Source: a virus. From it: a stretch of 47,979 nt of DNA. The translations under genes and the position numbers were made by a program. The notes under the pieces were generated by a model. The model searched no databases and was not told the DNA's origin. It was given only the letters and a program-made list of their open reading frames with translations. Below, piece by piece: positions 8,980 through 44,770 of the stretch (position 1 is its first letter; each line of letters opens with the position of its first letter). The stretch spans positions 1 through 47,979 of the IMG/VR virus record IMGVR_UViG_3300040806_003504; one strand, 5' to 3'.

Positions 8980-10224
8980 ATGGCTCGTAATATAGGCACA
9001 ATTAATACAACACAAACCTTTCAGAATTGGTTTAATAAGACTAATGATCTTGTTGAAGAATTACGAGATAACATTATTACGGCCTCTTCAGGTGGAGATA
9101 CCACAACAGGGGATGCAACTTTAGTCGGTGATTTTACATCTACTAATTTAATCGCAAGTACTTTACTATCATCCGACCAAATAAGTTCTTCTTCGGGTGG
9201 TGTAATTAATTTCCAAGATCCAATACAAATTACAGGTACATCTGCTACAACTGCTACTTTCCTTTTCGCAGGAACTGGTGGTCAGACAAGATATACAGAC
9301 GGAAGTTTATCTTGGGACGTTGGATTAGAAAGTTCAAATCCTGGTCATTTTATTATTGACACAGGAACAGGTCAATCTAAATTTGAATTATCAGTCGCAG
9401 GTACTTTAACAGTTCCTAACTTAATTGTTACTGATGTTATTTCTGCGAATACAATTTCATTAGGTGGTGGCGGTTCAGGTTTAAATTCTGATGACATTGA
9501 AGAAGGAACATTAAACTTATACTATACAGATGCAAGAGCAAGAGCAGCCTTTACAGGTGGAGATGGTATTGCCATTTCTTCAGGTGGAGTAATATCATTT
9601 GACGGAGCTGGTAAACTTACTTCTTATGAAGGTGATTCATATATTTTAGCAGGTTCTGTTGATGTTGGTGATAAGGCATACCTCGCAGGTAAGCAAACTG
9701 CTGGGTCTCCAGTTGGAATATTAAAAACTGAAACAGCAAGTACTGATAAAGAAGTACTACTTTGGAATGCTGGCGGAATTGATGTTAACGGTTATGGTAG
9801 ATTTACCGATGACCTAAGAGTTACAAATGCCAATCTTGTTTTAAGAGATGGGTCAAATGTAATACAGGCATATATCACTTCAGAAGGTGATGCACACTTT
9901 ACAGGTGACGTAACAACATTTGGCTCTGCATCAGACGAAAGATTAAAAGAAAATATTACTCCTTATGCTAAAGGTTTAGCTGAAGTAGAAAATATTAATA
10001 CGTTCACATTTAATTATAAGGACAGACCTGAGGATATACTTCCGGGTGTTATTGCTCAGGAAATAGAACAGATTTTACCAGAAGTGGTTTATGATATTAA
10101 AATGGAGGATGATACTTACAAAGCAGTGAGATATCAGCAGATTGTGCCAGTACTCGTTAACGCAATCAAAGAATTGAGTGAAAAGGTAAAAGATTTAGAA
10201 AACCGTCTAAATAACGACGGATAA
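8980..10224 (+). CDS. Tail fibre protein with C-terminal S74 intramolecular chaperone
   Basis: A 414-residue fibre. The N-terminal 310 residues are a beta-rich, Gly/Ser/Thr-rich shaft, with elements such as LNLYYTDARARAAF that are common in phage fibres. The C-terminal part from SDERLKENI (Ser318, codon 9931-9933) matches the peptidase S74 / endosialidase chaperone domain. This folds the trimer and then cuts itself off at the Ser; the Ser and the Lys five residues later are both present, along with the GVIAQEIEQILPEVV motif and a terminal coiled coil (VLVNAIKELSEKVKDLENRL). Self-cleavage would release about 97 residues. GGAAGAAAG lies just upstream of the ATG. It follows the 60-residue gene by one base and belongs to the baseplate-proximal unit. 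The receptor is unknown. Confidence 0.82.
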   Translation: MARNIGTINTTQTFQNWFNKTNDLVEELRDNIITASSGGDTTTGDATLVGDFTSTNLIASTLLSSDQISSSSGGVINFQDPIQITGTSATTATFLFAGTGGQTRYTDGSLSWDVGLESSNPGHFIIDTGTGQSKFELSVAGTLTVPNLIVTDVISANTISLGGGGSGLNSDDIEEGTLNLYYTDARARAAFTGGDGIAISSGGVISFDGAGKLTSYEGDSYILAGSVDVGDKAYLAGKQTAGSPVGILKTETASTDKEVLLWNAGGIDVNGYGRFTDDLRVTNANLVLRDGSNVIQAYITSEGDAHFTGDVTTFGSASDERLKENITPYAKGLAEVENINTFTFNYKDRPEDILPGVIAQEIEQILPEVVYDIKMEDDTYKAVRYQQIVPVLVNAIKELSEKVKDLENRLNNDG

Positions 10225-10238
10225 TTTGAGTTTGGTCT

Positions 10239-10246
10239 TATAAATA
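10239..10246 (+). promoter_or_regulatory. T4-type late promoter octamer
   Basis: TATAAATA, an exact match to the T4 late -10 element, lies in the 49-base gap 27 bases upstream of the 3,307-residue gene. In T4-like phages this is read by host RNA polymerase with gp55 and the sliding clamp, with no -35 box. The assignment rests on the motif and its intergenic position. Confidence 0.7.
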
Positions 10247-10273
10247 ATAAGTAATACCAAAAGGAAACAGTAA

Positions 10274-13200
10274 ATGGCAAAAATTTCAGAATTACCTCCG
10301 ATTACCGGTGCCAATACCAGGCCTGAAGACCTGTTCGTAATCGTCAACCTTGTTCAAGGAGACGACGGCACAAGTAATATAACTAGGAAGGAATTAGTTG
10401 AAGCAATTCAATACGAAATCTTTTCTAGAATAAACATCACTGGTGGAACAATCTCCGGTGTGGTTATGTCTGACTCACGATTAAATAACGTTGAGATAGA
10501 TAATTCTGAAATTGAAGATACCGATTTTATTCGCGGTTCAATTGATGATACCGTAATCACAAACAGTACTGCCAATAATATTACAATGACTTACAGTAGT
10601 TTCCAATTTGGAACACTACTTGACTCAACTGCCAACAACATTACAATTACACAATCTGACTTTTCTGATGGTACAGGTAATAATAACGTATTCACAAATA
10701 CTACACTACGTGATGGTAGTGCTAATAATTTTGTTATTACAGACTCAACTGCCAACAACATTATTATTACGAATTCAGAACTTAATGACAGTACAGCAAA
10801 TAATGTTGCGATTACAGATTCAACAGTAAATAACACAATCATAACAAGTTCTGAGTTTAATGACGGAACTGCTAACAACGTAGCAATTACTCAATCTGAT
10901 TTTTCTGACGGAACAATTAACGACACAGTTATTGAAACTTCCGAGTTTAATAATGGTACGATGGATACAGTTACTGGTATTAATTTAGATATCAGCAACT
11001 CTGCATATGCTAACGGAACTGTTTCTGATTCTATATTAACAGATAATACTATCCTTAACGGTACAGCAAATAATATTGCGATTACAGATTCAACCGCTAA
11101 TAATACTATTATAACAAATTCTGAATTTAATGATGGCACAGGCAACAATGTCACATTAACTAATTCAACAATTGATGATTCACTATTCAGTGATGGTACT
11201 ATTTCTAATACCTCATTCACAGGTACAATGGATAGTGTTGTCGCAACCAACATGCAAATCAGAAGTTCAACTGCTGATGGTTTAGGTGCAAACAATTCAA
11301 CGTTTGAAAATGGTGGAATATCAGGTTCAACCTTTGACGGTGGCGTAATTAATAAATCCAATCTTGTCGACTTCGACATGGATATTAATACAGAATTTGA
11401 AGCACCAATGGATGATGAATCCTATTTTGCTATTCGTAACGAAAAGACAGGTAATACAGAACAAATTAACTTCGGTCAACTATTCGACGAAGTATCTAAG
11501 AAAACAGCACAGGCATTAAAGGTCCACGTTGATGCAGGTTCAGGTAATGATGATAACCCAGGTACTCAATTACAACCTGTTAGAACATTAGAAAAAGCAT
11601 TTGAACTTTGTTTAGAAAAAGCAGGTGGCGAATTAAATCGTAACGCAATTAATAACTCTGTTCATATTTCAGTTGGACCAGGAACATATTATACAAAAGG
11701 TAATCTGCAGTTACCTGATGACTGTTCAATTACTTCCACATCAGGACAGTATGCGACGGTCATCGAATTAGAAAAAGGTTATGAAAATAATAATGGTATT
11801 CTTGTAGGTTCTGGTTGTTATGCTCAAGGATTTGCATATCAGAATTTCCAAGTTGATAACTTTGATTTCCCAGAAGGCGGATTCGCGGTTGCGTATCGTC
11901 CTGGTGCTAAGTTATTGCGTTCACCGTACTTAAGAGATAGTTCACAGTTATCAAACTTCTTACGTGCTGATGTTGAACCACCTTTGAATCCTTACAACTC
12001 AAAAGGTACTCTTGCTGACTTAGGTAGAGAATTTACTTTAACTAGTATTTCAGATCCTACCAAGTTTGCGATTGATGATGAAATTATATTCTCATCAGGT
12101 GCTATCGGTTATGTATCTTATATTTCTGAAATTGCTTCAGATAGTAAAATTCATGTAAGGAACTTAAAGAATAATCAAGGATTCTCTGTAGGAGATACAA
12201 TTACTGCTGAATCTGGTGGTACTGCTGTTATTCAAGAAATTGGAATTGACGACTTCCCTAACAGAGAGGTTGGTCGAGGCGGTGGTTGTGTACTTGCTGA
12301 CAGACGTGTACTTGATACTGATTCACTATATACATATGTATTATGTTTTGGTTTCACGCCTCGTTCACAGAACGGTATCGGTTATGTAGCAAGAGACGGT
12401 GCTGGTGTTAACGGTATTGGTTCATTGTCCATCTTTGTTCGTTGTGCATTCTATGCTCTGAACGGAGGTCAGATGACGCTGAACAACTCAGGTACTCAGT
12501 TCGGTGATATCTCAATGCGAGCAAAAGGAACTACAAACTTCTTTGCTCCAAAATCAACAACAGCAACAATTATTGGTAATACTGCATTCGCTGATACAAT
12601 TGATTCTAATAAAGATGATATTATTGATGATATGGTTAGTTACTTAACAGCCAATACAGCAAATGGTGGATTAGGATATAAGCAATACGATTCAGAAAAA
12701 TGCTTAAGAGATGCAGGTATTGTTCTTGATGGTACAGGATACGATGTTGCTCTTGATACAAATTATTGGGGTAGATTAGCAGGTATTACTTATAGGTCTC
12801 CAATCAGTTATGTTGTACCAGGTGAACAGCTTGAAGAAACAAAAGGTGCATTAGAATATTTAAGAGATAGAACAAAAGAAGTATTCGTTAATGCGAATTC
12901 AGAAATTAACACAAGAATTGAAACCTCCTTTGCTGAGCTTCTAAATGTCTTAGAATACGGTGAAGAGAATATGAATGGAATTGTATGGCAAGATACTTCA
13001 GTTCCTCGTACTGCTGCTAGAACATTAATACAAGACAACAAATCCTTTATTGCTGATGAGCTTATTGATTGGATTGAAAACAACGATGAGTTCTATGCGT
13101 ACGATTCAGCAAAATGCCGTAGAGATGTACAAGATTATATTTTACCTGCCGTATCTAACGATATGCAATTTGACACAAACTATAATGCTGTCACTGCAGG

Positions 13201-16200
13201 TCGTGCTTATTATATGGCAACAGCAGCTAAAGTTGTTCAACAACAAAATAACGAAACTGTTGCTGCTTACAAGAGATTAAAGGACCAAGTAAATGAATTG
13301 ATTGATGGGGATTCATATCTTGCATCTGAAAAATTGGATGAAGGATTTGAAGAAATTATTACTATCCTAGAAAATTCAGGAACTCAGTTTACACCTACTG
13401 CCGCTACTTATGACCCATCTACCGGTTTATCAGTTATCACACTCGGTACAGGTCATGGACTAACTAAAGGAAGAAAGGTTCTTCTTAAACAAAGTGGTCT
13501 AATCTTTACATGTGACAGAGATAATAATACAACAAGACATGCGTACCCAAGAGCTTCTGACCCAGCCAATGGTTCGCCTATTGAGGTTATCGGAGTTACT
13601 GATACCAAGATTGTAGTTAATGTTGGAAAATCCGATTTAATTGATACTCATACATTTGTTGAAGCATTACCAAATGCAGTATCTATATTAGGTTCAGCAA
13701 TTACATGGAGTGATTCTTCAAGTATTCCTGCTGATAAGAGAAGTGCAAGACAACAATTACAATCCAATAGAGAATTCTTACAAGAACTAGTCTTAGGCTA
13801 TATTGATGAAAATTACTTCAGATATAATTCTGATAAATGTAAGAGAGATATTGAAGATTATATTGTTCCTGCAGTTGAAAGAGATATTCTAACAGGAACA
13901 AACTATAATGCAATTCAAACAGGTATTGCATATCGTGCAGGTACTACACTTACTGATAATGTAATTAATGACCAATTAGTAGAAACAACTGGTGCTATCA
14001 ATAATTTAAAATCTCAAGTATTAGCAACCATTACAGATAATGCATCTGACCATAGAGCGGCAGTTTCATTTGATAAAATGGTTGGAATATTAAACAGTGC
14101 GAATAAAACATATTCTACTACAACTGCTAATTATGACCCAGCAAGTGGTTTAACAACAATCACAATTGGTTCACACGATTTACAACCTGGTGATGAAGTA
14201 ATCATTGCACCTGATAGTATGACATTCACATGTGCTTCTGACGGTAATGCAACACAACATACATACCCAACAACTACAATAACAAGTTTCACACCAACTA
14301 ATGCAACATACGATCCTTCAACAGGAATCTTTACCGCAACTATTGGTACTCATAAATTACAAGCGGGTGACTTCATTGAGATTGCCCAAGATAGTATTGT
14401 ATTTACATGCGACTCCGATAGCAATGTTACTGAACTTTCTGCACCACAACCACATCATCCTTTCTACAAGAAAAAGATTGCTTTAACATCAGTCACAGGT
14501 ACAACTATTACTTGTAATGTAGGAATAGGTTCAGGCGGAGTACATACATTTGTATCAGCAGTCACAGGTGCAATTACAGGAGAAAGACAACATCCTGCAT
14601 ACAAGAAACCAGTTGTAGTTGCTGCAGTAACTCCAACAACATTTACAGTTAATGTTGGTCCATCATCTGATGTATCAGTTCATACATTTGTATCAGCAAC
14701 TGCTAACAATATTAAAACTGCAAAATATATCTCGGCATATACACCAACAAACGCAACCTACGATCCGGCAACTGGAGATTTTGTTGCTACTATCGGACAA
14801 CACAATTTGGTTGCTGGTGATTATGTAGAGATTAAACCAGAATCGGTTGTGTTTACTTGTGCTCAAGACGGAAATGCAACAGAACATGCTTATCCAGAAT
14901 CTCACCATCCTGCATATAAGACACCTGTAAGAATCTTGTCGGTTACCTCTGATACAATATCAATGAATGTTGGAATAGGTGCTGGTGGGGTCCATACATT
15001 CGTTAGAGCAAATGTTGGAGCAATAGATTCTGATGCATTAGTATTTACTGACCCTGCATCACACGTTAAACATTATACACCAACTACTGCTACTTATGAC
15101 CCAGCAACTGGAATATCAGTAGTGACTATTCCTGGGCATGATTTAACAACATCTGATTGGATTCAATTTGCTCCATACAGCTTTACATTTACTTGTTCTT
15201 TAGATAGTGATGCAACTGAACATTCATATCCAAGAAAAGGTGATGGTAATTATAATATGCCAATGGCAATCACAAATGTTGCTGGAGATGATATTACAGT
15301 TAATGTTGGAACAGGTTCTGGTGGAGCCCATACGTTTGTATCGGTGACAACAGATGCAGTAACTAAACTAAGTTATAATTCTCAAGGTCAATACGCAAGA
15401 GAACAATTACAAATTAACAGAGATTTCTTAGCTGCTGAAGTTAATGCATATCTTGATGATAACTACTTCATATTTGATGGAGAAAAATGTTCAAGAGATA
15501 CAGGTTTAATTCTTGATGCAGTACGAAGAGATGTTGCATCAGGTTCAAATTATCATGCAGTATTCAATGGTCTATCATATAGATTAGGTGGAGCTGGTGC
15601 TCAATTGGTAGTTAACGAACAGTTAACAGAAACCGTTGCTGCGATTAATTTCTTAAAAACAAAAGCTGCGGCTCAGGCAGCAGTTACAGGAACTGCGTTA
15701 ACAAGATCTGATGCTGCCTTTGCCGAAATTATTGATATTTTACAAAACACTGAAACCGCTGCTGATATATTAACATTTGGTACTAACTCTGTATCAGCAA
15801 ATCATACAATCGCAAGACAGATATTACAATTAAACAAATCATTCTTACAAGCAGAAGTAACTGCCTATATCGCACAAACATTCCCATCGCTAACATACGA
15901 TGTTGCTAAATGTGAAAGAGATACTGGTTACTTAACTGATGCTATCTCTTGGGATATTCAACACGGTTCAAATGCTGCAGCAGTTAACTTCGCAAGAATG
16001 TATTACGATAATGCAATCGCAGTATTACCTGAAGAACAAATTTTACCAACAGCAAAAACTTGGGAACATATCGCAAATGTTGCTTATGACATTGTAAGAA
16101 ATATTGCAGTTACACCTACAACAGGAAATGCTGTTTCTCAGAATCAAACATTGTCCGATGCAGGAGTTGAAGTTGGGGAATCTGTAAGATCTGGAATTAA

Positions 16201-19200
16201 TATTACAACTCAAGTTATTAGAGATAAGAATAGGGATCATTTACCTGCTTACGTTGAGCCTATCGTCGAAAGCGGAATGGAATCTGCTGTGAATGTACTT
16301 GATGGTATTACAGAAAATCTACAAGAAGCGGTTATTGATTACTTAAGACAAGAACATAACGGATTGCCTTATAGCAAAGCAAAATGTACAAGAGATGTTG
16401 GATTAATTGTTGATGCGGTATCAAGAGATATTGAATACGGCGGAAATGAAAATACTGTTGAAATCTTTGAGTATTACTTCAAGAGATTCCAAGGTGAATC
16501 TGCAGATTATGAACAGTTAAGATCCACTAATGTATTACCGATTGAAGTTAAAGGTCAATTTAAAACATTATCTGATTATAATGATACTGCTAATGTATCA
16601 GGTTTAAGAGAATCAATTAGTATCTTACCTTACGAACAACGCATTCCAACTAAATTGGCATTTGCACATTTAGCAGATGTTGCTGAAAAGATTGTTAAAG
16701 AAGTTGCTCATACACCAACAACAGGTAATTCACTAACCCAAGATACAACAGGTACACCTGCTGATGCTACAACAGGTACTTCTGTTCATGATTTAATTAA
16801 TACTATTGCTGAGTTGGTTGATAATGTTAACATTGAAGATGCTGAAATGCCTACGGTTGTTAAAGCATCGTTTGACCCTAACAGAACATTAGCAAGAAAA
16901 CAATTACAAAGAAACAGACAATTTATCATTGAAGAAGTGGATGGATATATTAAAGATCGTTGGTTTGCATTTGATGGAGATAAATGTAAGAGAGATATTG
17001 GTCTTATCTTAGATGCAGTTGCTAACGATGTATTAACAGGTGCTAACTTCAATGCAGTATTTAACGGACTTGCATATAGAATTGGTACGGTCGGTGCTGA
17101 TGCAGTAGTTAACGAACAATTATCAGAAACAGTTAAAGCGGTTGAGTACGCAAGAGATATTACTGTTGCTGCTGTTACTGATGCAACAATGAAACAAAGA
17201 ACATTGGATTCATTCAATGAAATCATTGATATCATGACGAACGGTTCAGGTAATGCCGATGTAATTGATTACACATCAGTATCACCAAGTTTCAACAGAC
17301 TTAATGCAAGAAACCAATTACAAAATAACAAAGCATTCTTACAAGCTGAAATCACAGCTTGGCTTGCAGTAAATAGACCGTCACTAACATACGATGTTGC
17401 TAAATGTGAAAGAGATTTAGGATATCTAATTGATGCAGTTTCATTTGATGCTCAGTTTGGTGGAAACTTTGCTACAATCAATGATGCAAAACTTTACTTT
17501 GAAAATGCAGTATCAGTATTACCAGTTGACCAAAGACAACCTACAGCAGATGCATTTGCTCATATAGGTGATTGTGCTGAATTAATTTGTTTAGATACAG
17601 ACATCGGCGGATTGAAATCTGTAGGTAATGCCGTAACTCAAGATATCACAGCAGGTTCAGCAGGAGCAGCAACAGCCGCTGAAGTGGAAGGATTATTCGA
17701 TATCGTTGCCGGTTCAATTGAAAATAATACATTACTTATGAATCCTATTCAAGTAGGACCTGATGTAACTGCATACAATGCAACTAATAGCAATGCGGTT
17801 TCTGAAATCCTCGGTGTTAAGAAAACAGTTCAAGGTGGTGTAATAAGTCATCTATCTAAATTCTTTGAAATATTACCATACAATGAAACAAAATGTCGAA
17901 GAGATGTTGGTTATATTGTTGATGCAATTTCACATGACATTCAATACGGTGGAAATGCGGCAACAGTAAATACAGTTAATATGTATTTCACAAACGGCAT
18001 TAATACAGGTTTACCAATTGAGCAAAGACAAAAAACAAAAGATGCATATTTACATATGTCAAAAATTATTGAACATGTTGTTGGTGGTAAATCAATTACA
18101 ACAACTGAATTCCCAAGAACAGGGAAATTCTACACAGGTGATATTTTAACAAAATACGAATATTGGAATGGTATGAATTCATATCAAACATCAGAGTCTC
18201 AGGACTTTGCGGTACATGGTGCAAACCCTGATACTTGTATTGCTGCAAGACAACTTGCTGAAATAATTGCCAACGGTGTTGATGATGCAACAGAAGTTCG
18301 TAACACAATTCCTGAAAGAATTGATATTCAACAAACTTGGATGGGTACTAATTATATCACATCTAAAGAATTGGTTGAAAGACAGGCTGATAACTATTCA
18401 GAAGGTGTAATCAATTACTTATCTACAACATTCAACGGTTTAAGTTTCCCTGAAGCAAAATGTAGAAGGGATGTTGGGTATTTAATTGATGCGGTATCAC
18501 ATGACGTTCAGCATGATACAAACTATGCAACAAGAATTGCTGCCCAGATTTATTTTGAAAATGGACTATCTGTATTACCTGCAGATACAAGAACACAAAC
18601 TGCTGACATTTATCAGTTCTTAGGAGATGCGGTCGAGCAAGTGGTCCAAGAAATTCCTGTAACGAATGCAAGTACATATACATTATTACAACAAGATGTT
18701 TCAGGTACCGCAGCAACAGCCGCTGAAGGAACAACAGTTCACGATTTAATTGGATATGTTGAAACATCAATTCGTGATAACGATCTTGATAAATTACCTG
18801 CTCTATCTTCAACCGCAACATGGCCTGCAGCTGAACTATCGGCCGCAGTGATTACAATTGATGATAATTCTGAAGAACTTGCATCTGATGTAACAGAATT
18901 TATTAATAATAACTTTAACGTATTGGATTATAATAAAGCAAAATGTAGAAGAGATACTGGTTACTTACTTGATGCATTCAGCTTCGACTTAAACTACGGT
19001 GGTAATACTGCTTCAAGATGGAATGCTGATTTCTACTTCTGGAATCAAATTTACAGATTGCCTGAAGACCAACGTATACCAACAGCAAGATCATATCGTC
19101 AGTTAGGTAGAATTTGTAAAGATATCGTAATAGGCGAATATCCAAAACAAAAAATACTTGGTGAGTTAGGAACAGAAATTGAAAGTAAGAAAGTAGAAAA

Positions 19201-20197: not shown

Positions 20198-20219
20198 CAT
20201 AAGATAGGAATAAAATAAA

Positions 20220-20645
20220 ATGCCAATTACAACTATACAAACTTCTCAAGCACCTGACGCAAAACCAGTTGCTAAGAACCTTGTCCTATCGACTAACTGG
20301 CAGGAAATCATAAATGTACCAAATTATGAAGTTCCTGAACTAGTATTCGGTGGGTCTACAACGGTTGAGCCAGGTGTAGGTGAAATTATCTCACCTTTAG
20401 TATTATGTAATACGACATCATCAACAGTAAGGTGTGATGTACAGGTATATCGTTATGATGAAAATGTTACTTATTACATTATTCGTAATTTACCAGTACC
20501 TGCATATGACACAATACCAATTCCTCTGAATGGACAATTTTTAAAGTCAGGTGATATACTTGAGGCGAAAGCTGATGCTGATTTAGCAATACATAGTACA
20601 TTATCATTTACTTTAGGCCAATCAGAAGAAGACGATGTTGTTTAA
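20220..20645 (+). CDS. Small virion structural protein of unknown function (141 aa)
   Basis: A 141-residue protein predicted to be all-beta: WQEIINVPNYEV, VGEIISPLVLCNTTSSTV, DVQVYRYDENVTYYIIRNLP, then IPIPLNGQFLKSGDILEAKA. The layout (alternating strands, a GDIL turn, a D-DVV end) looks like an immunoglobulin-like or jelly-roll fold and resembles small proteins that accompany giant fibres in marine T4-like phages. It lacks a signal peptide, membrane segment and cysteine-rich motif. AGGA is about 10 bases before the ATG. It lies 22 bases after the giant gene with no promoter between, so they are probably co-transcribed, and it may decorate or cap that protein. Function is not known. Confidence 0.65.
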   Translation: MPITTIQTSQAPDAKPVAKNLVLSTNWQEIINVPNYEVPELVFGGSTTVEPGVGEIISPLVLCNTTSSTVRCDVQVYRYDENVTYYIIRNLPVPAYDTIPIPLNGQFLKSGDILEAKADADLAIHSTLSFTLGQSEEDDVV

Positions 20646-33579: not shown

Positions 33580-33580
33580 C

Positions 33581-33590: not shown

Positions 33591-33640
33591 AAGGTATACA
33601 TTGAACAATTTAAACCGCCTATCTGGGGAGAGTGAACCGA

Positions 33641-36600
33641 ATGGCAAATGATAAGAAATTTATAGTCAAGAATGGTCTCTTGACACCGGAAAATGCTGTC
33701 ATCGGCAGCAATACGGATACTGGTGAAAAACTCCAGGTCACCGGTGACACAGTCCTAACCCAAGGTACGCAAGGTACTCCGACTTTAAAAGTTACTAATT
33801 CAGGTGGAGCTTCCGCTTCTACAATCGTTGCTCAATTTGAAGGTGATTCTGATTCACTCCAGATTCGCAATATTGGGACAGGCGATTATTCAATCACAAA
33901 TCCTCAGCAAGGAAATAGTATTGAATTTTATGACGGTACCGCAGGTATTGTTATTAAATATGCAGGCTCAAATAAATTAGCATTTACAAGTACAGGAACT
34001 GATTTTACAGGTCTTTCTAATACAACGATTGAAGGTAATCGTATTCTTACAACTGCAGATGAAGGTGCAGGTAATGGATTAGATGCTGATACAGTTGATG
34101 GATTACAAGCAAGCCAATTCTTAAGATCCGATGTTGATGATACTGCCGCAGGTAATATAAACTTTTCACAAGACATTGATGTCGCAGGTTCTGCTCAAGT
34201 TGATGTTAACTTAACAGTTGATGGTCAAGCAGTTATTAAAGCTTTACTTGATGCACAAGCAAATGCTCAAGTTGCTGGTAATTTAACGGTTAGTGGAGAT
34301 CTTTTAGTTTCAGGTAATACGACAACTGTTAATACCGAAGAAATTCTACTTGCTGATAATATTATTACTCTTAATAGTAATTACACAGGCTCAACTCCAT
34401 CAGAAGATAGCGGTATTGAAATTGAGCGTGGTACATTAGCAAATCCAAAACTTGTTTGGAATGAATCTCAGGACTATTGGGAACTACAAGTTAATGGTTC
34501 AGTACTTGGTCGAATTATTACAACAGCAGATGAAGGTTCAGGAAATGGATTTGATGCTGATACTGTTGACGGTTTAGAGGCAGCGCAATTCTTACGTAGT
34601 GATGCTGATGATACTGCTACAGGTAATATTACAATTGAAGGTGATCTTACAATTGGAGATGATTCAGGTCCTGCTCAAATTATCTTTGACGGCAATGGAG
34701 TTAACCGTACTTTATATTCAGCAACAGGTGAAATCGGATTTTTAAACAATGCTGCTAACTGGGCGGCAAGATCTAATGCAAATGGTGATTGGATTGTTGA
34801 ACGAGATGTTTCAGCAGGTAGAGATGTAATTGCTACGAATGATGTTACAGCAACAAGTGGTGATGTAACTGCTGGTGATAGTATTACAGCACAAAATAAT
34901 ATTACAGCAACGACAGGTAATATTGCTGCTTCAGCAGGAAGTGTAACAGCACAAACAAATGTCACGGCAACAACAGGAAATGTAACAGCAGGTGATAGTG
35001 TTACTGCTCAAAATAATGTAACCGCTACAACAGGTGATGTAACAGCAGGCGATAGTGTTACTGCTCAAAATAACGTAGCTGCCACAACAGGAGATGTGAC
35101 GGCAGGTAATGATGTTACTGCAGCACAAGATATTACAGCAACTTCTGGTAATATTTCAGCAACGGCTGGTTCAGTAAGTGCAGGAACAACAGTTACCGCA
35201 GGTACTGATGTAATTGGTCAAAGATTTGTAGACGCAGACAACAATACATATCTTGTAAATCCTGGTGCAGATTCAACAATGCACGCAATTGGAATTGATG
35301 ATAATCTTTTCCATAACGGTGATACTGATACAAGATTACAATTTACTGATAATCAAATAAAATTAAGAACAGGCGGCGGTGATAGATTAGACATTAATAA
35401 TTCAAGAGTCTTATCTAACCTTGATACATATGTACCTAACCTTTTTGTTAACGATACAATTGTTCATAATAATGATACTGATACATTAGTAAGATTTACT
35501 ACTGACACTGTAGATATTGACACAGGCGGTTCAACAAGATTAACCGCGAATAACTCAGGAGTCACAATTGAAGGTGATCTTGATGTTAATGGAGATATTA
35601 CAGCAGTTAATGGTACATTCACAGGTGACCTTGCTGCTTCAAGATTTTTAGATGCTGATAACAATAACTATTATGCGGACCCTAACTCAACATCAGTAAT
35701 GAATCGTATCGGCATTGACGATTACATTCAACATAACGGCGATACAAATACTTACTTTGGATTTAATGCTAACGATAATATTCAATTCTTTACTGATGCA
35801 ACACAAAGAGTTGAAATCAATGGCACAAACTTTACAAGTACTGTTGATGGTATATTTCCTAACTTATATGCAGGAAGATTCTACGATTTAAATAATGCAA
35901 CATATTATGTAGACCCAGCAAGTAATTCAAGAATGAATGGTATTGCTCTTGTCGGAACAATTTACCACGACGGTGATACTGATACATATTTAAACTTTAA
36001 CGGTGCAAATAGTTTTGAAGTTGTCACAGGAAACGCTCAAAGATTATTAGTTAACAATACTTATGTGTTAGCAAATAACCAAATGCGTTCACCTATCTAT
36101 TACGATAATAACAATACTGCTTATTATGGTAACTTTGCTTCTACTTCTCAGATGGCACAAATTGATATTGATAGTTATATTCGTCATCGTGGTGATACAA
36201 ATACATATCTTGGCTTTGATGCAAATGATAGTATTACATTCGTAACAGGTGGTGCTGAACGAGTTAATATTACTGACGCGAATACAACATTCTATCAACC
36301 TGTTATTGTTCAAGGTGACGTTACAGCAGACAGATTTGTTGATAGGCAGAGTTCATCTTATTATGTAAACCCAGCGGATACTACAGTCAGTGGTACGTTC
36401 GCCGGTGGTTTAAGAATCGGAAATATTTCTGATTATGCCAACTGGGACGATAACACAGGTAACGGCGGTATAGGAATTGCTGGGCATGGAGCAATTGCGG
36501 CAGGTCAAAATCCAACAATCACAGTATCAGGTAATTATTCTGGTGGATATTCATTATTATATCTAAACAGAATTGACCCAACATCAAACCCAACAAACAA

Positions 36601-39600
36601 CGGTCAAAGATATATTCATTTCTATCATGATGGAACAGACGGTGGTTCTATTCGTGGTGATAGTTCAGGCAATTTATATCAAGTATTAGGGTCAGGAACC
36701 AATTGGGGATTCTGGACTTCTGGTTATTCTGAAGCATTAATTGTTGATGATAGTGGCAATGTAATGGTTGCTACTGGTACTTCACCTACTTATACAGACG
36801 GTGGTGATAACACGGCATTAACAACAACACCAAGTAATCCTAAATTACACGTCGGCGGTTCAATTTATTTAAATGGTAATAACGACGGAATTATATTCGG
36901 TCGTGGTACAGCATCATTCCTCAAAGATGAAGAATTAGCGTTCGGTTGGGGATCTGGTTGGTATATGCAAGATGCTTCTTACTTAAGAGTAAGAAATAAT
37001 ACAACCGTTTATTCTACAGGTAATACTCAGTTTAATAGATATTATGCATATCAGAATACAGCTTATTACCTTGACCCAGATGGTGATTCACAATTAAATA
37101 CAGTTGACATTGATGATTACATTCGTCATCGTGGGGATACAAATACTTTAATTGGTTTCTCAGGTAATGATACATTACTTTTCCAAACAAATGGTGTGAA
37201 TCGTTTACAAATTAATAACGGTGCATTTAGGTCAAGAAACAATACAGTCCAATTCTATTCAAGTGGAATTGAAATACAAAAACAAAGTAACGGCGGTGGT
37301 GTAGGTCTTACAGTATCAGACGAAAACAGCGCAGAGACTCCTGGATTAACTGGATTACAACAAGGTTCTATTTTATTCTATCATGCTGATGGTGCTGTCA
37401 CTACAGGTTCAAACGCTGCTTGGTATTTTAATTCATCAGAAGCAACTGTTCATTATGTCTTTGCTGAAAACAATGGAGCAAATGGTGGTAATTTAGTACC
37501 TATAGTTAATAACACTGGTAATATAGGTTTATCATCTTATCGTTGGAATACTGTTTACGCAGGTACAGGTAATTATAGTGGAAATGTAACTGCAGCCAAT
37601 ATGTATGCAAGCAGATATTATGATGCTGATAATAATACATATTACGCTGACCCAGCAAGTACTTCTTATCAACAGTATATGAACATCAATGTTGGTAATG
37701 AAAATATTGGCGGAGCAAACTCAAGCACTCTCGGATTGATGATGAGAGGTAATTACAATAGTAATACCTGGGCTCATAAATTCCATAAGATGGACCACGG
37801 CGGTGGAGTTCCAATATATCTTTCACAAACAATTGGTACTGCAGCTTGGTCACCATTACAAAGATGGGGTACTTTCTCAGGTTCGTCAGGTGCTTCGAAC
37901 GGTGGTTATACTTCTCAAATATTTGGTACGTTAAGAGTTGATACTGCTACCTATTCACCAATTTATTATGACCTAGATGATTCTTCTTGGTTCGCAAATC
38001 CAAACGGCGAATCTAGACTCAATACAATCAAGCTTGATGGTAATGCAGTTATATTAAGAGAACCTACAGGAACATTTGGTTCACTTGCTGTAAGCGGTGG
38101 TGGAAGAAATGGATACGAAGGATTTAGTATTAATGATCGTTCTGTCTTTATGCACGATGGCGGAAACGTCACAGGTGTTTATAACGATGTAGACAATCAG
38201 TGGTTCTGGTATGGTGAACGTGGTGGAGTAATGAGGTTAATGCATGCGGGTGTTGAGCGTGCAAGAACTGAAAACGGATACTTCCTTGCGAATCAACAAT
38301 TAAGAACTCCAATCTTCTATGATTCAAATAACACAGGCTATTACGTAGATCCTAATAATACATCAAGATTCAACGCAGTTCAAGCATTAAGATATTACTT
38401 TAACCACGCAACCACATATTATGCCGATGCAGCATCAGGTGATTACGGTTCAATGGAAGTTGGCGGTACTAAAGGTGGTTGGGCTGGTTATTCTATTGCT
38501 GGTCAATGGAATTTCATGGCAAGTGGAGTTGATGAAGCAGGTATTTACAACGACACCGATAATAAGTGGGTCATAAGAACAGATCGTAACGCAGGTGTTG
38601 ATTTTTATTATAATGGTGCTAAACAAGCTGAAACAGAAAGTGGTTATTTCCTCGCAACAAATCAAATGCGAGCACCAATCTATTATGATTCAAATGATTC
38701 AACATATTACTTAAACCCAGCAGCAGGTAATACAAACCGGGCATTAATGATTGATGGTAGAATATACCGTCAAGGTTTTGCTTCAGGTGATGGAAATAAT
38801 AACAAACTATTAGAAACTCAAGATCGTTCACATTGGATTTGGAACACTGCTACTGATTGGGGTATTTTCTGGGCAGGTGATGATAATCCATATCGTTCAC
38901 ACTTTAGTACAGCTAATCCAAATGAAATCGTATTCATTGGTAACGGAAACCTAAGAGCAAGTATTGACCTTGATAATGGTAATGCTCACTTTACTGGTAC
39001 TGTATCTGCTGGTAGTTTTGCGCTTAATGGTGGAAATGAAAATATTGAAATTATTAAGTCATACGGTTCAGGTGGAGCTGACTTAGTACTATTTGATGGA
39101 ACAGAATATTTTGATAAGCGTGTCATTAAAGCAATGGCACCAAACGAAAGCCCACTTACTACGGTTACTTCAGAATATGTTAGAACAACAGATGGTCCTT
39201 TCGCAGGTTCTTATGTATTACAAACATCTGCTTATAGAACATTCAATTCAGACTATATTCCTGTTGCTCCTGGTGAAGAATTATACGGTGAAATTTCTGT
39301 TAAGACAATTTCAGGTTCAGGCGGTTTGGTTTATTATGGTATTGAAAGATTTGATAGTCAGAAGAGACCTATTGCTGGAAACACAGGCACAACATACTTT
39401 GTAGTTGGTGGTGCAAACTATACAGGCACTTCTTGGACAACATATAGAAATCATACAACAATTCCAACATCTCATACTCCATATAATGGGTCTGACGGAG
39501 GTGGTTGTTATTATGTAAGAATTCGTATCTTAATGAACTACAACTCTGGTGGTGCTTTAAGACAGTTTGCCGGAATTATGCTCAAGCGTCGTAACGCTGA

Positions 39601-42600
39601 ATCTAATTTATTAGTTGATGATTTACAAGTATTAGATGATGTTCAAATCGGCGGAGACGCAACTATAGTAGGTGATTTGACCGTCGATGATATTACTGCT
39701 GATGTAATTGATGCAAATATATTTAGAGACCGTGGTAATACTGGATATTACTTGGATCCAAACTCAACAGGCACATCACTCAATGTTCGTGGTGAAATAA
39801 GTAACCCATCAGTTTGGATTAACGATGGTGATAACTTTAATTCATATAATGAAAACATTCGTTTATTCAATGCACCGAATGGAGTTTCAGTAATTGCGTT
39901 TAGCGCATCAGGTACATCAGGTACACCCGCTACTTCAATCTTAGGATACTCTGATAGATTAGAAACTCGCAGGTCAAATAACTGGCAACAAAGAACATAT
40001 TCTAATCGTGTAGATTTTGTTGGTGACATTCGTCCTACAATTATGTATGATAGAAATGATACAAACTGGTATGCAGATCCTAACTCAGGTTCAAGATTCA
40101 GAGAATTGGATGTTGAAAACAATGGAAGTCAGGAAGTATTTAGAGCATATAGATATGGCTCTGCTCCAGGAAACTATGCTGCAGCAAGGACAATTAACCA
40201 ATACGGTAATCACTCTTGGGGTATTGTTCACGAGTTTAGAATTGGTGAACCTGGCTCACAAAGTGTACCTAGTGGTACTGACAGACCTTCTATACTATTC
40301 TCAACTGGATATAATACAACAACTTGGTCAGTTGGTTTCGGTTATGTCGATAACGATTTCAGAATTAAACAAGATCACGGTCATATAAATCAAGGTTGGG
40401 GTACTGAAAGATTTAGAATTAATACAAGCGGTGAAGTATTCATTGGAAATAGCTTATATGGTGCTAACGCATACTTCAATCGCTATTACGATAGAGACAA
40501 TACTGGATATTATGCTGACCCAGCAAGTACATCTGTATTTAATGCAATGGTATTTAATGGTGACGTTGATTTCAACGGTGGTGCTAATGCGATTAATATT
40601 ACAAGTTCCGATATTCGTTCAGACGGTAATTCAAGTTGGACAGGAAACCCAGGTGCAGGCGTAGGTAAGATTCAGATGCACAGTAACCGTTGGTACATTG
40701 TATCTAACGGAAACTCAAACAGAATCGTTCAGTTCAGACAAAATGGTTCTGACAGGTCATATATTGCGAACGATGGTAGATTAATCGGTGTCGGTGGTAC
40801 TGCTTCTCAGGATTGGAGAGCTCCAATCTTCTACGATACAGATGATACATCATATTATTCAAACCCAGCAAGTGATTCACGATATAATACATTAACACTT
40901 CGCGGAAACAGATTAGGATTTGTTAATACTGCATTTGATGCAGAGATACGAGTAACTGATGATAACCCAGACGGTACAGGTGCAACATTTGTATTTTGGG
41001 GAGACCAAGTAGAATATAATGCTGAAGTAGCAACTGAAGTATTTAGAGCAACAAGACATATGCGTGCTCCTGTATATTATGATTTAAATAATGCTTCATA
41101 CTACGGTGACTTTGGTGGTGTATCTTACATGAACGATGTAAGAGCTAACATATTCTACGAACGTGAAAATACAGCATACTACTTTGGTTCAAGCCAAGGT
41201 GATGCAAGAATGCGTAACGTTAGATTCAATAACGTTCAGATTGAAGACGGCGCAACAATCACATCTGTAAATAATAGCGGTAGAATTTATCTTGGTGGTA
41301 ATTTACATATTGATGCTCAAAACGGTACAGACATTTTTATGAACTACTACTCAGGTAGAAGGTTCAGGTCATTTACTCCAGGACAATATGAAGCGTTTAG
41401 AGTTGATACTGACCGTATTGTATATGCATATGCTCAATTTAGAACACAATTAATTTACGATACAAATAATACTGGTTACTATCTTGATATGAACAACAAC
41501 TCAAGGTTTAACGACCTTCAGTTGAGAGGTAATTATGTAAGAACATATTATCATTCAGGTTCTGACTTTGTTAATGGTACTCTTGTAAGAACAAGTATTC
41601 CTGCGACCGCAACTAACGGGGCTTCATTCGTACTTGAAGCAACAGGTAAATCTTATTCAGGTGATCCGCCGTTTATGTTTACCGCACAAGGTTACTTATA
41701 TGCTAATACTATTATTAATCATTCTGGTCAACATATTGGTAAGGCCGGATTTAGTACAATGCGTATATTTGAAAACGGTGGAGTATTATGTTTCTGGTGG
41801 CCTCGCGTATCTTATTGGAACTCCTTCTCTGTTCATGTAAGAAATGCAAACGGTGATGATAGAAACTTAGTCACAAGCGTTTCAAACTCATCTTTACCAG
41901 GATACTCGAAAGGTGTGACAACAACAATGCGTACTACCGCAATGTATAATGTTAACATTAATACAGGCGATATGTATGCACAACGTTACTACGATAGTAA
42001 TGATACATTCTATTATGGAGACTTTGCTTCTAGTTCTAGAATGAATGAAGTGAATATGTATGGTAGTGGTCGTTTACAGGGCGGCGCACCTATGTACTTC
42101 TATACAGGTGCTGGAAACCTACGTGGTTATATACGAGCAACTGATTCTAATGATAATCACTTTGAGTTTGCTACATCAGGTGGAGAGGACTTCATCTTCC
42201 GTGATGGTGGATTCGGAGGTTCTTGGAATCAAATCATTCGTGGTAATGGTCATGTATTAGTAGCATCAAGATTTGATACTCCTATTATGTATGATAGGAA
42301 TGATACTGGTTATTATGCAGACCCTAATGGTACTTCGCGTTTCAATACAATGCGAACAAACAGAATTTATCCTGCTTATGATAATGCAGGAGATATGTAT
42401 TTAGATTGGCCTTCAGGTAATTACGGTTCAATCCAAACAAATGGTGGCGGTAAAGGTGGCTGGGAAGGTTATTCAATCAATGGTCGTTATGTATTCATGT
42501 CGGCGGATAACAACGAATGTGGTATTTACAACGACATTGATAATGAATGGATGACAATCTGGCGTCGTAACGGCAGAACTGAAATATACCACAATGGTAC

Positions 42601-44770
42601 ATGGGAAGAATATGCTCAGCCAGGATATATGCAGGCTCGTGGTTCTTATCGTGCTCCAGTTTTCTATGATTCAAATGATACTGGATATTATTACGATCCT
42701 AACTCTACAAGTGCTGCAGCAGGAAGACAAAGAGGTGGTACATTATATGGACCAAATACTTCTTGGGGAAGATATCTTGCAGTTGGTGGAAATGGTCGAT
42801 ATAGTAACGAAGCTTCGGTTGCTGCTACAAATGGTAACTTACACCTTGACGCAAGGTCAGGATTTGGAACATATATTAACTGGTATGTAGGCGGAACAAC
42901 TTACATTAACGGTACACTACAAGTTAACTTTATTTACGATAGAGATAATACTGCTTATTATTGGGATGGCGGTGGCACATCTCATATGAATGACCTTCGA
43001 GTCAATATTCTATATGATCGTAATGATACTGCTTATTACTTTGGTTCAGGCTCAGGTGACGCAAGAGCAAATAATATGCGTGCTTGGGAATTCTATGCTG
43101 ATAACTGGTTCCGAAACTACAACTCAGGTGAAGGTTTATATAACCAAGCAACAGCAATGCATTGGTACTCTGATAGTTCATCAAGATTCAGATTGTATTC
43201 TACATCAAGTACTTCACAAATCTTATTTACAACTGCAGGTAATAACGCTCGTGGTTATGCTTATGCTGATAACAGTAATAATATCGGTTTCCTTAATGCA
43301 GGCGGTGGTTGGGCATTAAGAACAAATTACAGTACGACTGAAATTTACGGTCAAGGATATGCTTCCGATTTCAGAGCTTATATATTCTACGATAGAAATA
43401 ATACAGGTTATTTCTGTGATCCTACTGGAAGAAGTAGATTAGCAGAAATTGATTACGGAAATGGTTCTTATTATCTCAGAAGCGGTTCTTGGGGATGGAG
43501 ACATCAGACTCCTTCTGGATATATTGAATTTGGTCCTGCTAACGGTTCACACGCTCATATCTATACTGATAGGTCTAACTTCTATTTCAATGTAAACGAA
43601 ATGTATATGAATGGAAGATCCATTCTGAAAGAGAACTATTGGAACGGAAGCAAATACTTTGGTAGTGATGGTACAATTTACGCAACAATCTTTAGAGATG
43701 CAAATGATGGTGGTTATTATGTAGATCCTAGAAGTACATCACGAATCAATGATATGGAGACTATTGGTCGAACTGTAATTGGTGGTACATTTGGTAATAA
43801 TGCATATAACTCAACATCATCAACAAGATTACATTTTGGTGGTGGTAATGGTGATGCAAACGCTAACTATTACATAGGTACAAACAGAGAGAACTATAAC
43901 GGTAACTATAATAAACTTGATTTAAGGTGGCATACAGGTATTCGTATGGGTGCCCAACAAGTTTATGGTGGTATTAGGTTCTATGATAGTGAAGACTTAG
44001 GTTCACTCAGAGTTCATATTGAAGCAGGTAGTGGTTATACAAGATTAAATACTTGGACTGAAATCGGTGGTGGCGGTGTAGGTATCTACGATGGTTATAA
44101 TGGTGCACATTTCTATCCGAACAACGCATCAAGCTATGGTTCTTGGAACCTTCTAGGTAGCAGAAGCGGTTGGCATGGATTATCCTTCAGTAGTGGTGGA
44201 TATAGACCTCACTTAATGTGGGAAAATGGTAATGGTGGTTTCTATCATCAGGATCTAGGTCGTTGGTTATTATACCATAACCGTGCTCTAAACTGTACTG
44301 GTATTGCTTCATCAGCTACTGTTTCTGGTTATCGTATGAGAATTAACGGTTCTCTATATTGTGACGGTAACGTGGTTGCTTACTCTGATGTTCGTAAGAA
44401 GAAAAACATCATTACAATTGATAATGCATTAGATAAAGTATTACAATTACGTGGCGTATATTATGAAAGAATAGAATCAAAAGTTGATGAACGTGATGAT
44501 CTTTATAAAGGTCGTCAGTTAGGTATGATTGCTCAGGAAGTTCAAGAGATTATTCCTGAGGTTGTATCATACGCTAAAGAAATTGACCAATACGGTCTTG
44601 ATTATCCGAAGATGGTCGGTTTACTTGTTGAAGGTATTAAAGACCAACATTCAATTGTTAAGACTCAAGAAGAAACAATAAATAATATGCAGAAAGATAT
44701 TGACATGTTGAAAGAAATGGTATATAATATGCAATCAATAATGGAGAATAGTAGCAATGGCACTAATTAA
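33641..44770 (+). CDS. Giant tail fibre with YYDP repeats and C-terminal S74 chaperone (~3,709 aa)
   Basis: I start at ATG 33641 (MANDKKFIVKNGLLTPENAV): GGGGAG at 33625-33630 is ten bases away, and the ANDKKF-V-KNGL start recurs in marine phage fibres. The in-frame GTG at 33632 is too close to that site. After the anchor come a GNTTTVNTEEILLADNIITL module like that of the previous fibre (near 34273-34570), a Val-Thr-Ala-rich tandem repeat (near 34840-35210), and about 25 copies of a unit of type F/YYD-x-N-N-T-x-YY-x-DP-x-x-x-S-R-x-N, spread over nt 35224-43760 with variable domains between. Three copies of a GYSI-x-G...GIYND-x-DN-x-W module occur (near 38095, 38461 and 42442). The C-terminus is an S74 chaperone: SDVRKKKNI with Ser3582 (codon 44384-44386), LGMIAQEVQEIIPEVV and a coiled coil; cleavage would free about 128 residues. 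It is the largest gene here and very likely an extended receptor-binding fibre. Confidence 0.83.
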   Translation: MANDKKFIVKNGLLTPENAVIGSNTDTGEKLQVTGDTVLTQGTQGTPTLKVTNSGGASASTIVAQFEGDSDSLQIRNIGTGDYSITNPQQGNSIEFYDGTAGIVIKYAGSNKLAFTSTGTDFTGLSNTTIEGNRILTTADEGAGNGLDADTVDGLQASQFLRSDVDDTAAGNINFSQDIDVAGSAQVDVNLTVDGQAVIKALLDAQANAQVAGNLTVSGDLLVSGNTTTVNTEEILLADNIITLNSNYTGSTPSEDSGIEIERGTLANPKLVWNESQDYWELQVNGSVLGRIITTADEGSGNGFDADTVDGLEAAQFLRSDADDTATGNITIEGDLTIGDDSGPAQIIFDGNGVNRTLYSATGEIGFLNNAANWAARSNANGDWIVERDVSAGRDVIATNDVTATSGDVTAGDSITAQNNITATTGNIAASAGSVTAQTNVTATTGNVTAGDSVTAQNNVTATTGDVTAGDSVTAQNNVAATTGDVTAGNDVTAAQDITATSGNISATAGSVSAGTTVTAGTDVIGQRFVDADNNTYLVNPGADSTMHAIGIDDNLFHNGDTDTRLQFTDNQIKLRTGGGDRLDINNSRVLSNLDTYVPNLFVNDTIVHNNDTDTLVRFTTDTVDIDTGGSTRLTANNSGVTIEGDLDVNGDITAVNGTFTGDLAASRFLDADNNNYYADPNSTSVMNRIGIDDYIQHNGDTNTYFGFNANDNIQFFTDATQRVEINGTNFTSTVDGIFPNLYAGRFYDLNNATYYVDPASNSRMNGIALVGTIYHDGDTDTYLNFNGANSFEVVTGNAQRLLVNNTYVLANNQMRSPIYYDNNNTAYYGNFASTSQMAQIDIDSYIRHRGDTNTYLGFDANDSITFVTGGAERVNITDANTTFYQPVIVQGDVTADRFVDRQSSSYYVNPADTTVSGTFAGGLRIGNISDYANWDDNTGNGGIGIAGHGAIAAGQNPTITVSGNYSGGYSLLYLNRIDPTSNPTNNGQRYIHFYHDGTDGGSIRGDSSGNLYQVLGSGTNWGFWTSGYSEALIVDDSGNVMVATGTSPTYTDGGDNTALTTTPSNPKLHVGGSIYLNGNNDGIIFGRGTASFLKDEELAFGWGSGWYMQDASYLRVRNNTTVYSTGNTQFNRYYAYQNTAYYLDPDGDSQLNTVDIDDYIRHRGDTNTLIGFSGNDTLLFQTNGVNRLQINNGAFRSRNNTVQFYSSGIEIQKQSNGGGVGLTVSDENSAETPGLTGLQQGSILFYHADGAVTTGSNAAWYFNSSEATVHYVFAENNGANGGNLVPIVNNTGNIGLSSYRWNTVYAGTGNYSGNVTAANMYASRYYDADNNTYYADPASTSYQQYMNINVGNENIGGANSSTLGLMMRGNYNSNTWAHKFHKMDHGGGVPIYLSQTIGTAAWSPLQRWGTFSGSSGASNGGYTSQIFGTLRVDTATYSPIYYDLDDSSWFANPNGESRLNTIKLDGNAVILREPTGTFGSLAVSGGGRNGYEGFSINDRSVFMHDGGNVTGVYNDVDNQWFWYGERGGVMRLMHAGVERARTENGYFLANQQLRTPIFYDSNNTGYYVDPNNTSRFNAVQALRYYFNHATTYYADAASGDYGSMEVGGTKGGWAGYSIAGQWNFMASGVDEAGIYNDTDNKWVIRTDRNAGVDFYYNGAKQAETESGYFLATNQMRAPIYYDSNDSTYYLNPAAGNTNRALMIDGRIYRQGFASGDGNNNKLLETQDRSHWIWNTATDWGIFWAGDDNPYRSHFSTANPNEIVFIGNGNLRASIDLDNGNAHFTGTVSAGSFALNGGNENIEIIKSYGSGGADLVLFDGTEYFDKRVIKAMAPNESPLTTVTSEYVRTTDGPFAGSYVLQTSAYRTFNSDYIPVAPGEELYGEISVKTISGSGGLVYYGIERFDSQKRPIAGNTGTTYFVVGGANYTGTSWTTYRNHTTIPTSHTPYNGSDGGGCYYVRIRILMNYNSGGALRQFAGIMLKRRNAESNLLVDDLQVLDDVQIGGDATIVGDLTVDDITADVIDANIFRDRGNTGYYLDPNSTGTSLNVRGEISNPSVWINDGDNFNSYNENIRLFNAPNGVSVIAFSASGTSGTPATSILGYSDRLETRRSNNWQQRTYSNRVDFVGDIRPTIMYDRNDTNWYADPNSGSRFRELDVENNGSQEVFRAYRYGSAPGNYAAARTINQYGNHSWGIVHEFRIGEPGSQSVPSGTDRPSILFSTGYNTTTWSVGFGYVDNDFRIKQDHGHINQGWGTERFRINTSGEVFIGNSLYGANAYFNRYYDRDNTGYYADPASTSVFNAMVFNGDVDFNGGANAINITSSDIRSDGNSSWTGNPGAGVGKIQMHSNRWYIVSNGNSNRIVQFRQNGSDRSYIANDGRLIGVGGTASQDWRAPIFYDTDDTSYYSNPASDSRYNTLTLRGNRLGFVNTAFDAEIRVTDDNPDGTGATFVFWGDQVEYNAEVATEVFRATRHMRAPVYYDLNNASYYGDFGGVSYMNDVRANIFYERENTAYYFGSSQGDARMRNVRFNNVQIEDGATITSVNNSGRIYLGGNLHIDAQNGTDIFMNYYSGRRFRSFTPGQYEAFRVDTDRIVYAYAQFRTQLIYDTNNTGYYLDMNNNSRFNDLQLRGNYVRTYYHSGSDFVNGTLVRTSIPATATNGASFVLEATGKSYSGDPPFMFTAQGYLYANTIINHSGQHIGKAGFSTMRIFENGGVLCFWWPRVSYWNSFSVHVRNANGDDRNLVTSVSNSSLPGYSKGVTTTMRTTAMYNVNINTGDMYAQRYYDSNDTFYYGDFASSSRMNEVNMYGSGRLQGGAPMYFYTGAGNLRGYIRATDSNDNHFEFATSGGEDFIFRDGGFGGSWNQIIRGNGHVLVASRFDTPIMYDRNDTGYYADPNGTSRFNTMRTNRIYPAYDNAGDMYLDWPSGNYGSIQTNGGGKGGWEGYSINGRYVFMSADNNECGIYNDIDNEWMTIWRRNGRTEIYHNGTWEEYAQPGYMQARGSYRAPVFYDSNDTGYYYDPNSTSAAAGRQRGGTLYGPNTSWGRYLAVGGNGRYSNEASVAATNGNLHLDARSGFGTYINWYVGGTTYINGTLQVNFIYDRDNTAYYWDGGGTSHMNDLRVNILYDRNDTAYYFGSGSGDARANNMRAWEFYADNWFRNYNSGEGLYNQATAMHWYSDSSSRFRLYSTSSTSQILFTTAGNNARGYAYADNSNNIGFLNAGGGWALRTNYSTTEIYGQGYASDFRAYIFYDRNNTGYFCDPTGRSRLAEIDYGNGSYYLRSGSWGWRHQTPSGYIEFGPANGSHAHIYTDRSNFYFNVNEMYMNGRSILKENYWNGSKYFGSDGTIYATIFRDANDGGYYVDPRSTSRINDMETIGRTVIGGTFGNNAYNSTSSTRLHFGGGNGDANANYYIGTNRENYNGNYNKLDLRWHTGIRMGAQQVYGGIRFYDSEDLGSLRVHIEAGSGYTRLNTWTEIGGGGVGIYDGYNGAHFYPNNASSYGSWNLLGSRSGWHGLSFSSGGYRPHLMWENGNGGFYHQDLGRWLLYHNRALNCTGIASSATVSGYRMRINGSLYCDGNVVAYSDVRKKKNIITIDNALDKVLQLRGVYYERIESKVDERDDLYKGRQLGMIAQEVQEIIPEVVSYAKEIDQYGLDYPKMVGLLVEGIKDQHSIVKTQEETINNMQKDIDMLKEMVYNMQSIMENSSNGTN
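34840..35210 (+). repeat. 57-bp-type tandem repeat (VTA-rich)
   Basis: A run of units based on NVTATTGDVTAGDSVTAQN (19 residues, 57 bases). The two central copies are nearly identical in DNA and the flanking copies diverge (ITATTGNIAASAG, VAATTGDVTAGND). It forms a low-complexity Thr/Ala/Val block at the base of the giant fibre. Confidence 0.8.
35224..43760 (+). repeat. YYD-x-NNT-x-YY-x-DP module array
   Basis: About 25 imperfect copies of a ~25-residue unit such as MYDRNDTGYYADPNGTSRFN. The first copy is FVDADNNTYLVNPG and the last FRDANDGGYYVDPRSTSR. Early copies are followed by a GDT-x-T-Y-x-x-F element (six cases between about 35310 and 37160), later copies by other domains. The regular Y-Y-x-D-P core points to a beta turn repeated along a trimeric shaft. 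Confidence 0.75.

Follow-up and report, generated by a model that had tools for sequence, protein, structure and literature searches.

The 47,979 bases of IMG/VR record IMGVR_UViG_3300040806_003504 (positions 1 to 47,979; the whole stretch is hereafter called the window) come from an uncultured marine T4-like myophage, a virus of bacteria, and hold a host recognition cluster of a T4-like phage with a VrlC-type, probably double-layered, baseplate. This cluster encodes several parallel virion appendages, a conclusion supported by the evidence below: at least three fibres ending in an S74 domain, two more repeat fibres and an attachment partner. One of its two giants, a protein of 3307 residues (G3307) previously taken for another fibre with shaft repeats, turned out to consist mostly of tandem phycobiliprotein-like globin domains. 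The explanation that best accounts for the whole, and in which we place good confidence, is a host recognition cluster with parallel fibres in which the globin array of G3307 is a probable bilin-carrying virion component. The features of the window are the following.

2-1321: subtilase (Peptidase S8; match 2.3e-18)
1370-3334, + strand: gp8-type baseplate wedge subunit (phrog_438, 7.5e-47)
3350-8794, + strand: VrlC/DUF4815 protein, left border of the cluster (PF16075, 3.2e-52; phrog_358, 8e-285)
8796-8978, + strand: 60-aa virion structural protein (phrog_473, 1.1e-5)
8980-10224, + strand: F414, short fibre with a C-terminal S74 self-cleaving chaperone domain at residues 318-371 (PF13884, 7.4e-13)
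10274-20197, + strand: G3307, 3307 aa, with conserved ends, a pentapeptide-like part and 11 tandem phycobiliprotein-like globin domains
10418-11353, + strand: G3307 residues 49-360, pentapeptide-like repeats, probable beta-helix (PF13599, 3.5e-11)
12515-12955, + strand: globin-like repeat 1 (Cys810; matched part residues about 765-894; VIA-align; PF00502, 2.6e-4, below cut-off)
12929-13369, + strand: globin-like repeat 2 (CRRD)
13652-14092, + strand: globin-like repeat 3 (CKRD)
15302-15742, + strand: globin-like repeat 4 (CSRD)
15725-16165, + strand: globin-like repeat 5 (CERD)
16199-16639, + strand: globin-like repeat 6 (CTRD)
16799-17239, + strand: globin-like repeat 7 (CKRD)
17219-17659, + strand: globin-like repeat 8 (CERD)
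17708-18148, + strand: globin-like repeat 9 (CRRD)
18275-18715, + strand: globin-like repeat 10 (CRRD)
18758-19198, + strand: globin-like repeat 11 (CRRD)
19451-20194, + strand: C-terminal part of G3307, residues 3060-3307 (97-99% at the extreme C-terminus in a same-species relative)
20220-20645, + strand: p141, small partner invariably flanked by G3307 and C1706 (dN/dS 0.03)
20696-25816, + strand: C1706, collagen-like fibre with globular inserts and an S74 end (PF01391, 4e-90; PF13884, 1.6e-16)
25961-26299, + strand: p112, LtfC-like or tail-fibre attachment partner (phrog_3304, 1.4e-14)
26296-30249, + strand: F1317, repeat fibre (phrog_6005, 5.9e-48; PF03906, 2.4e-8)
30289-33579, + strand: F1096, "DADLLDG" repeat fibre (phrog_32829, 5e-62)
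33632-44770, + strand: G3712, giant all-beta repeat fibre with an S74 end (PF13884, 1.3e-13)
44757-45188, + strand: p143, conserved small protein after G3712
45238-46022, + strand: two DUF7936 paralogues of 145 and 110 aa (PF25590, 1.2e-11 and 1.7e-14)
46055-47977, + strand: p344 and p295, probable cell-surface sugar genes (order kept in the relatives G001-G003)

VrlC (DUF4815) is a mark of double-layered baseplates. That of the window is related to PDB entry 9euf (1e-32) and matches a Sinorhizobium phage VrlC at 34% across its full length. Queries with VrlC and G3307 against IMG/VR yielded many relatives, among them three long, near-complete ones (G001, 156 kb; G002, 170 kb; G003, 137 kb), in which the interval from VrlC to gp13 spans 46.0, 52.0 and 42.5 kb, respectively, and gp13 is followed by gp14, gp15, gp16, gp17, gp18, gp19, gp20 and gp23; the cluster runs on past the end of the window, which stops before gp13. 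The host recognition cluster was named for this interval between VrlC and the neck genes, with mean lengths of 44.6 kb in pelagimyophages and 34.2 kb in cyanomyophages (PMC7029224). The region studied here shares with these clusters its place (located between VrlC and the neck by way of G001-G003), a similar size, tail fibre genes (S74, collagen and tail-fibre family matches), collagen-repeat proteins and hypervariability, which appears between close relatives; for the surface-sugar genes that are frequent in such clusters, p344 and p295 show weak family matches only. It differs from them in belonging to another uncultured lineage, in its fixed set of six large proteins and in its 11-domain globin-like giant, of which there is no description in the published cluster (PMC7029224).

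The initial annotation had regarded such a run of fibre genes as unusual, a view that is not supported, as VrlC-type marine T4-like phages have clusters of 34-45 kb at this place and isolates encode giants of 3,400-6,378 aa. A T4-style baseline was dropped as comparator, the proper group being the VrlC-type phages. The fibre cluster is of a known kind, expected in marine T4-like phages, in a new lineage. For gp17 and gp23 of G001, Sinorhizobium phages phiM12 and phiN3 provide the closest match or one of the closest (60-65%); in these phages the matching interval holds one tail fibre gene and one fibre assembly gene. For window bases 1-25,000, no nucleotide relatives were found among phage isolates.

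Several neighbouring genes deserve mention in their own right. The subtilase gene immediately precedes gp8 in the baseplate operon; 29 loci as well as G001-G003 contain complete homologues of its product (496-895 aa) with a GTS-type active-site motif. The product would be a baseplate-linked protease and possibly a virion enzyme. Beyond the matching end of the window, the cluster continues in the relatives (G001 84247-88586, G002 142777-151158, G003 61445-65279) with a cytidylyltransferase-like gene and several proteins of 125-897 aa, many of which start with MAIKV and are probable further tip or fibre proteins. Tandem DUF7936 paralogues are likewise kept 3' of the last giant fibre in relatives, possibly for fibre assembly. 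An ORF resembling uroporphyrinogen decarboxylase (hemE), of the heme pathway, was noticed by eye in G001 (reverse complement 111857-112798); also by eye, neighbouring ORFs resembling CsgG lipoprotein, FecR and CHASE2 plus adenylate cyclase (G001 reverse complement 107984-114836; G003 84898-90475) recall curli genes reported in pelagimyophages.

All the consecutive large ORFs initially listed on the + strand are present, with 414, 3307, 1706, 1317, 1096 and 3712 aa, together with the small partners of 60, 141, 112 and 143 aa. Only the length of the last giant needs correction, from 3709 aa, which corresponds to the next ATG, to 3712 aa counted from the GTG at 33632. The two giants of more than 3,300 residues are confirmed and have full-length homologues in IMG/VR contigs, with 44 complete ones of the 3307-type (median 3619 aa) and 15 of the 3712-type (median 3758 aa). 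Windowed self-comparison found internal repeats in five large proteins, F414 alone of the six being without; the earlier count of at least six shaft repeat families is reasonable, except that one family is helical and globin-like and forms no shaft. The gene order recurs in distinct junctions of IMG/VR contigs, namely F414 to G3307 (44), G3307 to p141 (37), p141 to C1706 (40), C1706 to p112 (27), p112 to F1317 (27), F1317 to F1096 (17) and F1096 to G3712 (14), and dN/dS of the cluster genes is 0.03-0.40. Because this order is identical across dozens of independent contigs, an assembly artefact, or a single known fibre split by assembly errors, is ruled out. The p112 stop and the GTG start of F1317 overlap by 4 bases (window 26296-26299), an arrangement of translational coupling.

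The proposal that these genes encode several parallel receptor-binding fibres is supported by the S74 ends, by exchanged segments in four proteins and by mass spectrometry of a related isolate. An S74 chaperone domain normally completes a fibre tip. Above the cut-off, such ends were found in F414, C1706 and G3712 (motifs SDER, SDER and SDVR, respectively), and exactly three S74 proteins occur in each of G001-G003. The collar of the T4 short fibre gp12 (PF07484) is absent from the window and from G001-G003 and present in phiN3 and ACG-2014j, while a gp9/gp10-type N-terminal domain lies just upstream in G001-G003. C1706 contains 262 G-X-Y triplets, F1317 is related to cyanophage virion structural proteins, including a 1433-aa protein of ACG-2014j, and the shaft of G3712 came out as all-beta in a weak model (pLDDT 54.5). 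In virions of the isolate S-CREM2, mass spectrometry detected a 4971-aa long tail fibre with its attachment protein, along with 450 peptides of a VrlC homologue and the majority of the proteins encoded from VrlC to the neck genes (gp13) (PMC10665884). Virion proteins of S-CREM2 match F1096 (63% across 86 aa with the long tail fibre gp85), p112 (1e-5 with the "tail fibre attachment" protein gp84), VrlC and the S74 ends of the window. The two phages share a VrlC homologue and a giant long tail fibre accompanied by its attachment protein (PMC10665884); in S-CREM2, unlike in the window, the fibre gene lies elsewhere in the genome, and no C-x-R-D repeat protein was found among the proteins checked.

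At least four proteins swap internal modules between otherwise near-identical genomes. In comparison with a relative whose gp8 and VrlC genes show a pS of 0.04-0.06, pS reaches 0.4-0.7 at about residues 150-350 of F414, about 0.5 at residues 800-3100 of G3307 and 0.3-0.6 in an insert at about residues 200-450 of C1706; in another pair, blocks at about residues 1300-1500 and 2000-2200 of G3712 show such a rise over a background of 0-0.2 (0.3-0.7 in the blocks of the four proteins). Together with the mass spectrometry of the related isolate, this swapping in four proteins supports several parallel virion fibres. The genes are adjacent and constant in order, as would also befit six proteins forming the successive joints of one composite long fibre, in the manner of T4, where gp34, gp35, gp36 and gp37 make up one fibre; this arrangement is improbable here, since three separate proteins each end in S74 and the exchanged segments are spread across four proteins. 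As parallel appendages, the fibres would contact different receptors and would diversify through the exchange of internal segments.

G3307 departs from a classic fibre in that its ends are conserved (97-99%) and its middle is variable. An AlphaFold model of residues 395-1345 (mean pLDDT 51.5, roughly 60-80 in the matched helical domain) was compared with the PDB by Foldseek, and phycobiliproteins made up most of the hits (E about 0.01-0.08, probability about 1.0). With VIA-align, the best 50 rows for repeat 1 are all phycobiliproteins or their derivatives (Z 12.2-13.4), the best compact alignments having an rmsd of 2.4-2.8 over about 120 residues and smURFP aligning over 125 of 135 residues; because helical models can reach Z values of 13-14 by chance, the uniform family of the matches weighs more than the Z value itself. 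PF00502 scores the repeats at 16-18 bits and the curated cut-off is 22.2, so that they are termed phycobiliprotein-like rather than members of the phycobiliproteins; these sub-threshold matches lie in the giant repeat proteins of the window, S-RIM2, ACG-2014j and G002. Single-sequence PDB searches with G3307, F414 and p112 gave 0 matches, and a search of bacterial genomes with a single repeat found no confirmed relative. Taken together, likeness of the G3307 repeats to the phycobiliprotein-type globin fold is well supported by computation, at moderate model confidence for repeat 1. The giants of S-RIM2 (6378 aa) and ACG-2014j (4063, 3516 and 3474 aa) contain the same repeat domain, but only 2-6 detectable copies with mixed motifs, whereas the window has 11 with C-x-R-D.

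Every globin-like domain of G3307 carries K-C-x-R-D-x-G or a near form of it, and a shuffled protein contains 0.08 such motifs on average. When the motif was masked and repeats were located by their remaining sequence, which avoids circularity, the cysteine was present in 670 and the full C-x-R-D in 663 of the 673 repeats found in 89 homologues; 41 of the 46 long homologues have exactly 11 repeats. Compared with the first repeat, the others are typically 10-30% identical, and C, R and D are the sole invariant columns. Two repeat profiles searched against the PDB placed phycocyanins at or near the top, with E values (0.13-1.3) that are not significant alone; in the profile alignment, C-x-R-D falls on the bilin-attachment C-x-R-D of phycocyanin, and the G-Y and G-G that follow are in register. 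This motif attaches and contacts the bilin in phycobiliproteins and in bilin biosynthesis-associated globins (PMC10151467). The repeats of G3307 resemble those proteins in predicted fold, in C-x-R-D and in a core of about 125 residues, and differ from them in forming a tandem array within a giant phage protein and in being very distant in sequence.

Bilin genes have already been described in cyanophages, with a presumed role in host antennae. Among the relatives of the window, G002 encodes a heme oxygenase (9.1e-20) adjoining a PcyA-like bilin reductase (1.8e-19; NCBIfam 4.5e-27). Relatives of this reductase occur in 80 IMG/VR loci, all of which share neighbour genes with the lineage of the window, and a heme oxygenase lies beside the reductase in 75 of them. 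A distant phage of 252.6 kb (G024) encodes a 4835-aa protein in which 24 globin-like domains with C-x-R-D follow one another, most of them about 108 aa apart (loci L380/L381, about 110790-125297). G024 also has a bilin reductase gene (2.8e-23) next to one for heme oxygenase (3.9e-13), and in contig G025 (locus L384) the same 4835-aa protein carries C-x-R-D in 24 of 24 domains. A repeat giant and bilin genes were found together in two records only, G002 and G024, of which G002 alone has the cluster of the window. The window record ends before any bilin gene, and the contigs of G001, G003 and G004 are interrupted in the corresponding stretch, for which reason the absence of the cassette from these three was dropped as counter-evidence. 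Cassette contigs G014-G021, which are fragments around replication genes, have no match to G3307, and no repeat ORF was found at the cassette loci. Published work has characterised cassettes of HemO and a bilin reductase in aquatic phages that are believed not to infect cyanobacteria; it left their purpose open and named a bilin-binding globin as one possible partner (PMC11480375). The pairs in G002 and G024 resemble these HemO-PcyX/PcyA cassettes in having an adjacent heme oxygenase and PcyA-like reductase, and differ in being accompanied, within one genome, by the gene for a candidate bilin-binding, putative virion protein.

Homology and position suggest that G3307 is part of the virion, and its repeats are candidates for bilin attachment; bilin binding is plausible because G002 and G024 encode adjacent bilin genes and C-x-R-D is widely kept. 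In the favoured explanation, the conserved N-terminal part and C-terminal end of G3307 would frame the 11 globin domains, and this array would be a virion component that probably bears bilins, attached covalently and produced by the heme oxygenase and bilin reductase of the phage itself. Its use may be light-dependent adsorption, photoprotection or rigidity. The fuller proposal, in which G3307 and its 24-domain counterpart are virion-borne biliproteins that take their pigment from the phage's own enzymes and make a light-sensing or light-protecting particle, is tentative, and we give it clearly less than an even chance. Nearly an even chance attaches to G3307 being a mere structural tail or baseplate protein of an ordinary host recognition cluster, in which the helical repeats are a globin-like spacer with no pigment and C-x-R-D serves folding, disulfide bonds or the binding of metal; retention for structure alone could indeed account for the motif. 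Such a scaffold is in keeping with the conservation of both ends, with the fixed number of repeats and with the similar repeats of giant cyanophage tail or structural proteins, in some of which the motif is altered (CxDD, CxTD, CxQD). Against it, C-x-R-D is nearly the sole feature kept among such divergent repeats, the motif binds bilin in known members of the fold (PMC10151467), and the 24-domain phage and a relative with the cluster of the window both encode bilin enzymes.

These enzymes could themselves be host-directed auxiliary metabolic genes, serving phytochrome, the antenna or iron release and unrelated to the tail protein, a possibility that we rate appreciably short of even. It is the published view of phage HemO-FDBR cassettes (PMC11480375), it agrees with the cassette lying among replication genes, a long way from those of the tail, and among G001-G004 only G002 shows the cassette, though the contigs break there. 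The retention of the cassette across most of the related loci and the presence of a bilin-binding-type protein in the same genomes speak against it, and no psbA was found in G001-G004, which makes an antenna role less likely.

The globin array, unlike the fibre cluster, is unexpected in marine T4-like phages. A literature search of titles and abstracts found no report of phycobilisome-type proteins in virions. If the bilin-carrying reading is true, G3307 would be, to our knowledge, the first pigment-carrying structural protein of a phage, and it would explain bilin genes in phages without psbA. The cassette-carrying phages themselves encode a candidate bilin partner, a large protein of the tail region in which the motif occurs 11 to 24 times. 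With pigment bound, the particles could perceive light or gain protection from it, which would bear on the light-dependent adsorption reported for marine cyanophages (PMC2984593).
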